Of a stretch of 20,617 bases of DNA, positions 1,715-11,680 are shown in pieces. Position 1 is the first letter of the stretch, and each line of letters starts with the position of its first letter. Position numbers and translations under genes: made by a program. The notes beneath the pieces are model-generated. The model made no database searches. It saw only the letters and a program-made list of their open reading frames with translations, and was not told where the DNA came from. The DNA is from a virus: IMG/VR virus record IMGVR_UViG_3300046822_000211, positions 1-20,617 of that record; one strand, given 5' to 3'.

Positions 1715-2482
1715 ATGATTGAAGAAGCGATAAACCGGATCCTCGAGCTCGCCAAGCCCAACCAGGTCGAACTTAGCGGCCTCCAGTTTTACGACAAACC
1801 TCTAACCCTACTCAGACCACCGGAGGCCCCGCCGATAGCAGTTACAACGCTGGCCGGTTTTATGGACCTTTACCACGAACGCCTCGAGGAAATCGCGGGC
1901 GCCAACGCGGCAAGCGATCTATTCATCCATATACTTAGCCCTAACGTTGTGGAGTTAGTAAGCGCAGCGGAGACCCAGTATGGTTGCCGGCGCGTATGGA
2001 TGCGGGCGAGCCCGCCGTCCGAGCTCGCCAAATTTCCGTTTGGGCAATTCATGGAGCCCGAGAAGTTTCTTATCGGCCTGCAATCCATGTTTCAACGGGT
2101 GAAGATCGAAAGCCCCGACGGCGCCGTCCTCGGGGATCTCGATTATGTCTTGCAGATCGCCAGCAACATTTCGGCCGAGGAGGCCGTCACCCTGGCCGAC
2201 GATGGGATCTCGCAAAAAGTAGGCGCGACCCAGGGCATTGTCCTCAAAGGTCACACGACACTAAAACCGCGCGTAAGCCTCGCGCCCTACCGCACTTTTT
2301 CGGAGATCGATCAGCCGGTCTCGGACTTCCTTTTCCGAGTCCGGAAAGACGACCGCAGTACCGTTGCCCTGGCCTTGTTTGAGGCCGACGGCGGCAGATG
2401 GCGCCTCGGAGCGGTCAAGGCTATTCACGATTGGTTTTTCGCCGCCCTGGACGAGGACGAAGTTATAGCAATTGTCCGATAA
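1715..2482 (+). CDS. Conserved phage protein, unknown function
   Basis: This is a 255-aa protein. I recognise the pattern of a common phage family from its sequence blocks: VTTLAGFMDLY near residue 45, HILSPNVVELVS near residue 72, FPFGQFMEPEKFLIGLQS near residue 107, DDGISQKVGATQGI near residue 162, LAPYRTFSEIDQP near residue 188, and FEADGGRWRLGAVKAIHDWF near residue 223. The family is usually found directly after the gene at 1341 and has no assigned activity. The phrase ALFEADGGRWRLGAV suggests a mixed alpha/beta fold and may be a ligand site, but that is speculation. The start at 1715 has GGAG about 7 nt upstream. The stop at 2480-2482 is followed by the longest non-coding gap in the window, so this is probably the last gene of the first operon. 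Confidence 0.65.
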   Translation: MIEEAINRILELAKPNQVELSGLQFYDKPLTLLRPPEAPPIAVTTLAGFMDLYHERLEEIAGANAASDLFIHILSPNVVELVSAAETQYGCRRVWMRASPPSELAKFPFGQFMEPEKFLIGLQSMFQRVKIESPDGAVLGDLDYVLQIASNISAEEAVTLADDGISQKVGATQGIVLKGHTTLKPRVSLAPYRTFSEIDQPVSDFLFRVRKDDRSTVALALFEADGGRWRLGAVKAIHDWFFAALDEDEVIAIVR

Positions 2483-2512: not shown

Positions 2513-2544
2513 AGGGCCCTCTTTTCCACAGGATAGAGGGCCCT
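2513..2544. promoter_or_regulatory. Perfect 9-bp inverted repeat, terminator stem or operator
   Basis: AGGGCCCTC (2513-2521) and GAGGGCCCT (2536-2544) are exact reverse complements across a 14-nt loop. The loop carries TTTTCCACA, a DnaA-box-like 9-mer. The stem is very GC-rich, but no T-run follows, so intrinsic termination would be atypical. Symmetry and position just before a TTGACA box also fit a repressor operator. The two options cannot be separated here. Confidence 0.4.
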
Positions 2545-2548
2545 CCCC

Positions 2549-2554
2549 TTGACA
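2549..2554 (+). promoter_or_regulatory. TTGACA -35-like box
   Basis: TTGACA is a perfect sigma-70-type -35 hexamer directly after the inverted repeat and upstream of the structural genes. No good -10 hexamer lies at 16-18 nt spacing: the best reads are AACTGT at 2571 and ACTGTC at 2572. The promoter may use another -10 sequence, need an activator, or be a chance match. Confidence 0.25.
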
Positions 2555-2641
2555 GCCGTGTTATCCTCCAAACTGTCCTAGCTGCACCTGCCCGCGGCAG
2601 ATCACGATTTACCGCGGTTACGCTCGCCTAAAGGTCTAACT

Positions 2642-2986
2642 ATCTCTAAAAATTATTCTGTACGCTATCCCGACGGAAGCCGGAGGCATGTCTCGAGAGA
2701 GGAGAAGGAATCCCTCTTACTGGCCGGCCGTATCCGCCAAACCGCCCCGAGAAAATACCTCTACATCGGTCCCCGCCATACCCTTCACGCCTTCTCAGAT
2801 CTCAGAAATCTAGCAGTTCAACCGATCGGGAAACTTCGCCGTTTCCTCGACGGGAATTTTGTCTATGTGGACTCCGAAGGCCTCCAACACAAAGAAATGA
2901 TGGAGACCCCGGAGGGCCTAGTCGAGCGACTCACCAGGACAGGTAAATTAAGGCCTCAAATTCAAACACAGGAGCACACGTTATGA
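2642..2986 (+). CDS. Hidden 114-aa phage gene, apparent ATC start
   Basis: A frame open from 2582 to the TGA at 2984-2986 contains no ATG, GTG or TTG near its beginning. If ATC 2642 is read as start, the product begins MSKNYSVRYPDGSRRHVS, a very natural N-terminus. AAGG at 2631-2634 gives 7 nt spacing. The sequence contains YPDGSRRHVSREEKESLLLA (residues 9-28), RKYLYIG (37-43), a basic helix PIGKLRRF, and LDGNFVYVDSEG (69-80). The last part resembles small beta-rich phage proteins with a 'YPDGS' motif; function is unknown. The stop overlaps the next ATG (ATGA at 2983-2986), as expected for a coupled operon gene. AUC is a very rare start codon. The alternatives are a CTG start at 2582 or 2588, a mutated start, or a base error. 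Confidence 0.6.
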   Translation: MSKNYSVRYPDGSRRHVSREEKESLLLAGRIRQTAPRKYLYIGPRHTLHAFSDLRNLAVQPIGKLRRFLDGNFVYVDSEGLQHKEMMETPEGLVERLTRTGKLRPQIQTQEHTL

Positions 2987-3462
2987 GCACCGCTTTACTC
3001 GACGGACAGAAGAATTTTGCATACGGGCCGGCCGGCGCAAAAAACCCGATCGGCATGGGACGCGCCGTACTCAATTTGACCTCGGCGCAGATCCTTGCCC
3101 TGCAGACGACCGGGATCCAGCTAGTCGCAGCCCCCGGCGCCGGCAAAATGATTGTGCCAGTCCTGGCCATTCAGAACTTTGTGGGCGGATCGATCGCCTA
3201 CACCAACGCCGGCGGCGCCGTCCAGGTCCAGGTTGGATCCCGAGTTAAGAGCTTGACCGAGGCCGCAATTACCACGGTTAGCCCGAACTCGACCCACACG
3301 ACCGACGATTGTACCGGCGCCTCGACCGCGGCCAACCCGCCAACGGACGAAAACGCGGCTATGGTCCTCAAAAAGATCACAAACAACTATGCCGCGGGCA
3401 ACGGGACCCTGAGCGTAGTCGTTTACTACACCATCGAAGATACGGCGCCCGTCGCAGACTAA
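2983..3462 (+). CDS. Probable virion structural or decoration protein
   Basis: This 159-aa protein is rich in Ala, Val, Thr and Gly. It carries LTSAQILALQTTGIQLVAAPGAGKMIVPVLAIQNF around residues 32-66, which breaks into the motif 'LTSAQILAL...APGAGKMIVP', then residues VQVQVGSRVKSL and a C-terminal GNGTLSVVVYYTIED. This pattern recurs in phage proteins predicted to be virion or head-fibre components with a jelly-roll-like beta fold. The GAGK is not a Walker A in this context. GGAG at 2971-2974 gives 8 nt spacing to ATG 2983. A 9-nt gap separates it from the next gene. A surface role is inferred from family resemblance and from position at the head of the fibre block. Confidence 0.55.
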   Translation: MSTALLDGQKNFAYGPAGAKNPIGMGRAVLNLTSAQILALQTTGIQLVAAPGAGKMIVPVLAIQNFVGGSIAYTNAGGAVQVQVGSRVKSLTEAAITTVSPNSTHTTDDCTGASTAANPPTDENAAMVLKKITNNYAAGNGTLSVVVYYTIEDTAPVAD

Positions 3463-6235: not shown

Positions 6236-6730
6236 ATGAGCTCACCGAATACGATCACTCTCAGGAAGATCTCGCCGCCGGCGCCCGCCGGCCAGGGGGA
6301 GATCCTCATCTTCGCAGACGCGCACAGCGGCAAGGTCCGTGCGATCGATTCAGCCGGCGTCGACGTTTTCCCGGTCGGATCCTCCGGAGGAGTGGGCAGA
6401 GAGGGCCCGATAGGTCCCCGCGGCCCGCAGGGATCATCCGGAGGTAAAGGACCGGACGGTCCGGAAGGCCCGCAAGGTCAAGCCGGGCCGGTTGGGGATC
6501 GCGGAGAACCCGGCCCGCAAGGAGCCACAGGTCCAGCAGGCCCCCCAGGCCCCCAGGGGATCGCCGGCACAGACGGCAAGCAAGGCTTACAAGGAATTCC
6601 AGGCCCGCAAGGCCCCGCAGGTCCCACAGGCCCCCGAGGCCCGGCAGGTCCCATGGGCCCAGGTCTCACCGAGGAGCAGGTCAGAATGATAGTCACCCAA
6701 ATGATCCAGGACTCTTATGTCGGCAGGTAG
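6236..6730 (+). CDS. Collagen-like virion fibre protein
   Basis: This is a 164-aa protein. Residues 54-141 form an unbroken Gly-X-Y run of about 30 triplets (for example [15 protein letters not shown]), long enough for a collagen-type triple helix. Bacterial and phage collagen-like proteins form trimeric rods without hydroxyproline, as on tail or head fibres. The first 45 residues contain [17 protein letters not shown], then [18 protein letters not shown]. This matches the N-terminal module of the next two proteins and is likely the virion anchor. The tail (residues 144-164, [20 protein letters not shown]) is a short helix that could register the trimer. The gene has GGAAGG before its ATG and overlaps the next gene by 14 nt. 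Confidence 0.75.
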
Positions 6731-11239: not shown

Positions 11240-11680
11240 ATGGCAGGGTTTCAAACGCACGACGGCAAGATCGCCGGCAACCGTGAAATTGTCCAGAGTT
11301 ACGACAAGGCCCACGGGAAAAAGCCCGACACGATGAAGCCCGGCGCCGCCGGCGGCAACGACGAAATGGGCGGCGGCGAGCCCGGCAACATGGAAGAGAT
11401 CAAAGGCCTGGCGGCCGAGCACGGGCCCGCGCACAAGACCGAGACGCACCATGACCACGAGGGCGGGATGCACCATATGCACTCCGAACACCCCGACGGT
11501 CACAAGCACCGGTCGAGCCACGGATCCGCGCACGAGGCCCACACGGCCGCGATGCACGCCTCGGGAGCCATGGAAAACGACATGGACGAGCACGGCGGCG
11601 AGCACGCGATGAACCAGGAAGAGGAAGAGGCCGGCGGAATGGGCGGCGGCAAGGGCCCACAAATCGGCTTTATGTCCTAA
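11240..11680 (+). CDS. His/Gly/Glu-rich phage protein, possible metal binder
   Basis: This 146-aa, low-complexity protein has more than 15 His residues between 66 and 125, in clusters such as HHDHEGGMHHMHSEH and HPDGHKHRSSHGSAHE, plus Gly- and Glu-rich runs at both ends (GGNDEMGGGEPG; EEEEAGGMGGG). Dense His clusters can bind Zn, Ni, Cu or Co. Phage proteins of this 'HHDHEGG...HPDGH' type occur in environmental phages between terminase and portal, with no known role. GAGGAGG lies just before ATG 11240. The reading frame is supported by codon use and clean spacing to its neighbours. Confidence 0.55.
   Translation: MAGFQTHDGKIAGNREIVQSYDKAHGKKPDTMKPGAAGGNDEMGGGEPGNMEEIKGLAAEHGPAHKTETHHDHEGGMHHMHSEHPDGHKHRSSHGSAHEAHTAAMHASGAMENDMDEHGGEHAMNQEEEEAGGMGGGKGPQIGFMS

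Follow-up and report, generated by a model that had tools for sequence, protein, structure and literature searches.

The stretch of DNA considered here, which we will call the window, is the 20,617-bp IMG/VR virus record IMGVR_UViG_3300046822_000211, a single metagenome contig. It carries a short gene placed directly before the first gene of the structural region, which we will refer to as the leader gene (Table 1). This gene consists of 114 codons (2642-2983) followed by a TGA stop (2984-2986), and its last bases are shared with the ATG start codon of the following gene in an ATGA at 2983-2986. The frame is open well upstream of the first of these codons, from 2582 (a TAG stands at 2579) down to the TGA.

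Table 1. Features of the leader gene locus in the window
Feature	Position	Strand	Basis or remark
Gene of phrog_1029 (unknown function) closing the preceding operon	1715..2482	+	Syntenic homologue in L009
Inverted repeat AGGGCCCTC...GAGGGCCCT	2513..2544	+	Lies after the phrog_1029 gene and before the promoter
Putative promoter TTGACA, 17 nt, ACTGTC (weak -10)	2549..2577	+	By eye from the sequence
Possible H-type pseudoknot or alternative hairpins	2588..2617	+	Pseudoknot scan; weak on its own
AAAGG, Shine-Dalgarno-like	2630..2634	+	7-nt spacer to ATC; same spacing in L068-L071
ATC, inferred initiation codon	2642..2644	+	TTG at the same place in L068-L071; similarity begins here
Leader gene of the structural operon	2642..2986	+	Open frame, tblastn homologues, best codon score of the three frames
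First structural-region gene after the leader gene (unknown function)	2983..3462	+	Many relatives in uncultivated phages

When the 114-aa protein was queried directly against phages, plasmids, and viral and genome contigs, zero matches were returned, so relatives were sought through the neighbouring gene and the terminase. The records of related uncultivated phages used in the comparison are designated by L-numbers (from L002, L003 and L009 to L147): L002 and L003 were retrieved with the gene 2983-3462 as query, L009-L043 with a terminase alignment, and L068-L147 with an alignment of 13 versions of the gene 2983-3462. Nucleotide errors are possible in any one of these single metagenome contigs. 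No close member of the clade was found in the annotated phage collection. In the relatives for which upstream sequence is present, a short gene lies directly before the first copy of the 2983-3462 homologue. Many phages of the clade carry diverged copies of the latter, which occupy different parts of the structural region; there are at least two in L003 (2659-3237 and 3622-4029), L076, L079, L088 and L098.

With the out-of-frame stop frequency of the window, a run of 114 stop-free codons is expected by chance with P of about 0.06 (approximately 1 in 18), so the open frame says little by itself and homology is needed to decide. The codon score of the frame is atypical (0.06 nats per codon vs 0.15-0.52 in the other genes of the window), and it outscores both alternative frames by more than 30 nats. 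In tblastn comparisons, L068-L071 match the window protein with about 31% identity over 95 residues (E 3e-9 to 5e-9), and L100 matches it with 32% identity (E 4e-8). All of these matches sit at the syntenic position, with the same first structural gene following directly, and the homologous frames are free of stops. Thus, on these comparisons, it is nearly certain that 2642-2986 is a real gene. The original prediction, made from the letters of the window, was therefore correct as to the gene, its coordinates and the ATGA overlap. The database search that it had proposed yielded nothing directly and found its homologues (L068-L071 and L100) through the neighbouring gene; neither a lack of homologues nor stops in the frame of relatives, which it had named as grounds for rejection, appeared. 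The codon usage is less typical than was implied by its wording that the frame reads like a genuine phage protein. It had further proposed that gene callers would overlook the gene and that the AUC start could limit expression of the first gene of the structural operon, and the comparison is in line with this proposal; the structured leader RNA and the recurrence of the unusual start in relatives formed no part of it.

The beginning of the gene is unusual. As had been claimed, no ATG, GTG or TTG is found near it, the first in-frame one after 2582 being GTG 2867 at codon 76. The window reads AAAGG, 7 nt, ATC TCT AAA AAT TAT, and its nearest homologues L068, L069 and L071 read AAAGG (GAAGG in L070), 7 nt, TTG CCG CAC CGC AAC TAT. 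With L068 and L100, the protein similarity sets in at residues 2-3, counted with the ATC as codon 1. From this alignment of starts, it is likely that translation begins at ATC 2642. A frameshift from an upstream ATG frame was rejected as an alternative, since there is no ATG in any frame between the stop of the upstream gene and 2642.

The same locus can be followed in the relatives. L100 has a TTG at the aligned start, with an in-frame stop ten codons upstream, and L120 has ATC GCT AGA CGC AAC opposite the TTG CCG CAC CGC AAC of L068, with no ATG, GTG or TTG between the upstream stop and the aligned ATC. L120 was assigned on synteny together with a short motif at the N-terminus, its pairwise score not being significant, and it is given less weight for that reason. 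Neither L100 nor L120 shows a clear Shine-Dalgarno sequence. The apparent AUC start at 2642 is thus matched in the aligned homologues by TTG (L068-L071, L100) or ATC (L120); the expectation that homologues would begin with ATG at the same point failed, and the locus rather favours weak starts. In a second family at the locus, the leader proteins of L003 and L009 are 62-63% identical, and the conservation, with mostly third-position changes, extends up to a histidine at residue 4. L003 has ATC 2336 at the codon aligned with the CTG of L009, 7 nt after AGAGG, and in L009 a stop lies in frame four codons ahead of CTG 6269 and leaves few possible start codons, the CTG being the sole plausible near-cognate one. 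A third family contains L002, with ATG at this point, and its close relative L012, which has ACG/CTG instead.

Over 18 lineages, which are the analyst's own grouping and are not independent on a tree, the leader gene starts with ATG in 6, GTG in 4, TTG in 3, and a codon other than these in 5, AUC being seen in three (the window, L003 and L120). Weak or non-standard starts (AUC, CUG, UUG or GUG) outnumber AUG about two to one. The next gene, on the other hand, starts with ATG in 17 of the 18, vs 6 of the 18 for the leader gene (Fisher P 3e-4), and the second structural gene has an ATG in nearly all relatives. The position of the start is conserved, the ATC of the window corresponding to the TTG of L068-L071 and the ATC of L003 to the CTG of L009. 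As far as these alignments can be read, the unusual start is recurrent at the locus and not a one-off.

The region upstream of the gene also has its own organization. The putative promoter 2549-2577 would place the start of the transcript near 2584; a consensus promoter scan did not find it. Layouts of the TTGACN-17-nt type were seen by eye upstream of the leader gene in L009, L003, L015, L019 and L039, and in many relatives the leader RNA lies downstream of a sigma-70-like promoter, again by eye. Just before the leader promoter, L009 carries a terminator-like hairpin with a T run (CGCGCATTTCCACAACGGAAGTGCGCGTTTTTT, L009:6060-6140); the inverted repeat of the window lies at the matching place, but it is devoid of a T run. 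Four near-identical phages, L068-L071 (about 1350-1610), share a common sequence from the leader promoter on and have unrelated DNA 5' of the promoter, a pattern which suggests module exchange at the boundary of the structural operon.

Two groups of relatives provide evidence for a folded leader RNA. Between L003 and L009, the 34-nt leader core differs at four bases that form, by eye, two compensatory pairs of a pseudoknot, and this pseudoknot differs from the structure of the family-B leaders. In six of the latter, two hairpins and a loop pairing account for 96% of cells paired, vs 22-49% for slid structures used as a control; 6 pairs have changed on both sides, and the covariation score is higher than in all 500 shuffles. 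The loop pairing is invariant except for one outer pair, so it is backed by pairing and not by covariation. A scan of 18 leaders for two-stem pseudoknots was significant with both of the loop settings used (Fisher 2e-5 and 2e-6), the loop limits having been altered between the runs after the L003 and L009 leaders had been seen, and its controls were null (Fisher 0.99 upstream of the next gene, and no signal in random windows). For the window leader alone, the scan gives a weak p of about 0.11-0.13. The predicted stems pair CUG 2588-2590 with CAG 2598-2600 and CCGCG 2592-2596 with CGCGG 2613-2617, the best first stem in the scan using an alternative CUGC at 2582-2585. For the same leader, simple MFE folding gave no significant result (z -0.9).

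Rfam covariance models gave no relevant match (riboswitches, leaders) in the window and its relatives, which speaks against a known riboswitch or other Rfam RNA as the leader. From one family to another the helices of the leader have different sequences, and the comparison does not establish descent from a single RNA. The compensatory changes in two groups of relatives thus argue that a structured RNA leader precedes the gene, its form in the window being a weak prediction, and it is plausible that this leader is regulatory. Elsewhere, on the minus strand of L036 (7682-7754), a match to the Rfam int-alpA RNA was found just above the gathering score. In L029 (381-1001), and also in L030-L034 and L042, the leader gene and an upstream GIY-YIG endonuclease-like ORF (VIYLHRSGTENLVYIGQTMRFEDRWDEH) form one open frame, in which this ORF replaces the usual leader RNA; a homing endonuclease has possibly been inserted at the leader in this group.

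The leader protein of the window is basic (114 aa, pI 10.1), as are all the leader proteins at the locus (73-114 aa, pI 9.4-12). Searches of PHROGs and Pfam gave no match worth reporting for it, and its comparison by hhalign with families A and B was not significant (probabilities 0.4 and 3.2). The family-B model, with a beta-beta-alpha-beta-beta-beta order, reached a pLDDT of 86 in one of five runs and 56-61 in the others. For the window protein, model confidence is low (pLDDT 59) and the fold matches are meaningless; the model begins beta-beta-alpha-beta like that of family B. With Foldseek, IF3 N-domains and ribosomal proteins came near the top, none of them significantly (E 0.27 or worse for IF3), and with VIA-align the N-termini of IscB came first at Z 4.5, below the tool's noise guide, L25-type proteins also remaining at Z <5. 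PF05198 (IF3_N) had no match over the cut-off in 8 phage records, the control genomes being positive, and Pfam together with the profile comparison (hhalign probability 1.2 with E. coli IF3) rules out an identity with IF3. The resemblance to infC/IF3 is thus a lead only.

We therefore favour, with a probability of about 0.72, the reading that 2642-2986 is a conserved leader gene of the structural operon in a clade of uncultivated phages, translated from AUC 2642, and that its weak start has been retained. The AUC itself could be illusory, since the window is one metagenome contig and a single C-to-G change at 2644 would yield an ordinary ATG; a sequencing or assembly error is, however, quite improbable given that ATC stands at the matching place in the independent contigs L003 and L120, that L009 has CTG there, and that the nearest homologues L068-L071 have TTG, not ATG. 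It is improbable too, if a little less so, that translation starts at another codon, either an internal one or, the frame being open from 2582 and containing two CTGs, upstream at CTG 2588 (or 2582) through the leader RNA. CTG 2588 would lie at the extreme 5' end of the expected transcript, within the putative structured leader, and would have no ribosome site, and relatives have in-frame stops upstream of the aligned start (27-30 nt in L100 and 9-12 nt in L009); the similarity with L068 and L100 sets in right after the ATC, and an internal start would remove the conserved N-terminus.

The atypical codon usage is compatible with a decayed gene, whose copy in the window would have lost its start codon and be on its way out. 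We hold this for very improbable, as the frame is undamaged over 114 codons, the Shine-Dalgarno spacing and conserved residues are retained, similar non-standard starts occur in several lineages, and L009 and L003 differ chiefly in the third base of codons (25, 17 and 43 differences at codon positions 1, 2 and 3). More serious, though we lean against it, is the possibility that, in a real and weakly initiated gene, the leader structure has nothing to do with translation and, for instance, protects the 5' end of the structural-operon mRNA: it lies close to the presumed start of the transcript, and structured leaders occur with strong and weak start codons alike. To come back to the favoured reading, the recurrence of weak or non-standard starts behind a folded leader suggests that production of the protein is deliberately kept low or controlled, and the gene is, as judged from sequence, probably regulated as well as weakly initiated.

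The following course of events can be proposed. A compact structured RNA, predicted as a pseudoknot in many relatives, would lie close to where the transcript is expected to begin; AAAGG would most likely position the ribosome, with inefficient initiation at AUC 2642, and the small basic protein would be made at low output, which would fit a regulatory product. The leader may in turn exert translational control, for example by being bound by the leader protein itself or by another factor, as its structure suggests by analogy with the pseudoknot of T4 gene 32. A stronger version, in which the non-AUG start and the 5' pseudoknot form a dedicated, clade-wide translational switch whose small basic protein binds the leader or the initiating ribosome and controls the structural operon, seems to us unlikely; the modelled fold of the leader proteins loosely recalls RNA-binding beta-beta-alpha-beta domains.

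Among genes with a non-AUG start, the classic example is infC, which starts with AUU in E. coli and through which IF3 controls its own synthesis. The window gene shares with it an apparent non-standard ATN start codon, and the weak initiation of infC is kept by selection, but it does not encode IF3 and its start codon varies between lineages. In S. aureus, the start codon of infC is AUA, cvfC1 starts with AUU and ccpN with AUA, and reporters with AUU or AUA starts give about 10% of the AUG version, ccpN reaching up to 30% in rich medium (PMC13009471). Closest in layout is cvfC1, a 61-aa small protein encoded by the first gene of an operon, whose non-canonical start is kept across staphylococci (PMC13009471). 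However, cvfC1 and ccpN are cellular genes with AUU or AUA starts and a strong extended Shine-Dalgarno sequence, whereas here a phage structural operon has AUC or CUG with a moderate AAAGG or none. Relative to AUG, initiation has been put at 0.86% for CUG, 30% for UUG and 58% for GUG (PMC11497404). T4 gene 32, for its part, has a pseudoknot 5' of its ribosome site, which was perhaps the only viral one in translational autoregulation according to a 2010 review (PMC3014915). The window resembles it as a phage gene with a possible pseudoknot in the same place, but gene and sequence are different, binding of the protein to the leader is conjectural here, and the pseudoknot potential is enriched and covarying in relatives and weak in the window. 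Within the clade, the family-A and family-B leader genes (L002-L043, L066) likewise stand before this structural gene, encode small basic products and have a structured leader, but the window protein has no significant sequence similarity to theirs.

We found no description in the literature of this arrangement of a leader RNA and a weak start. Non-AUG starts being already known from infC, cvfC1 and ccpN, the locus is a new case and variant of them. Few natural AUC starts are on record for bacteria and phages, the papers on an AUC start codon in the library searched dealing mostly with eukaryotes, and the presence of AUC, CUG, UUG, GUG or AUG at one position in related phages offers a natural series for asking why a weak start is kept. 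Gene callers limited to ATG, GTG and TTG would systematically miss or truncate this conserved gene, and if the leader RNA does control translation, it would be among the very few phage pseudoknot regulators. Further along the window, 6236-6730 encodes a collagen-like protein in which Gly-X-Y repeats follow one another over a long stretch and which probably belongs to a virion fibre or the tail, and 11240-11680 encodes a small protein with a very high content of His, Gly and Met (HDHEGGMHHMHSEHPDGHKHRSSHG), for which metal binding is possible.
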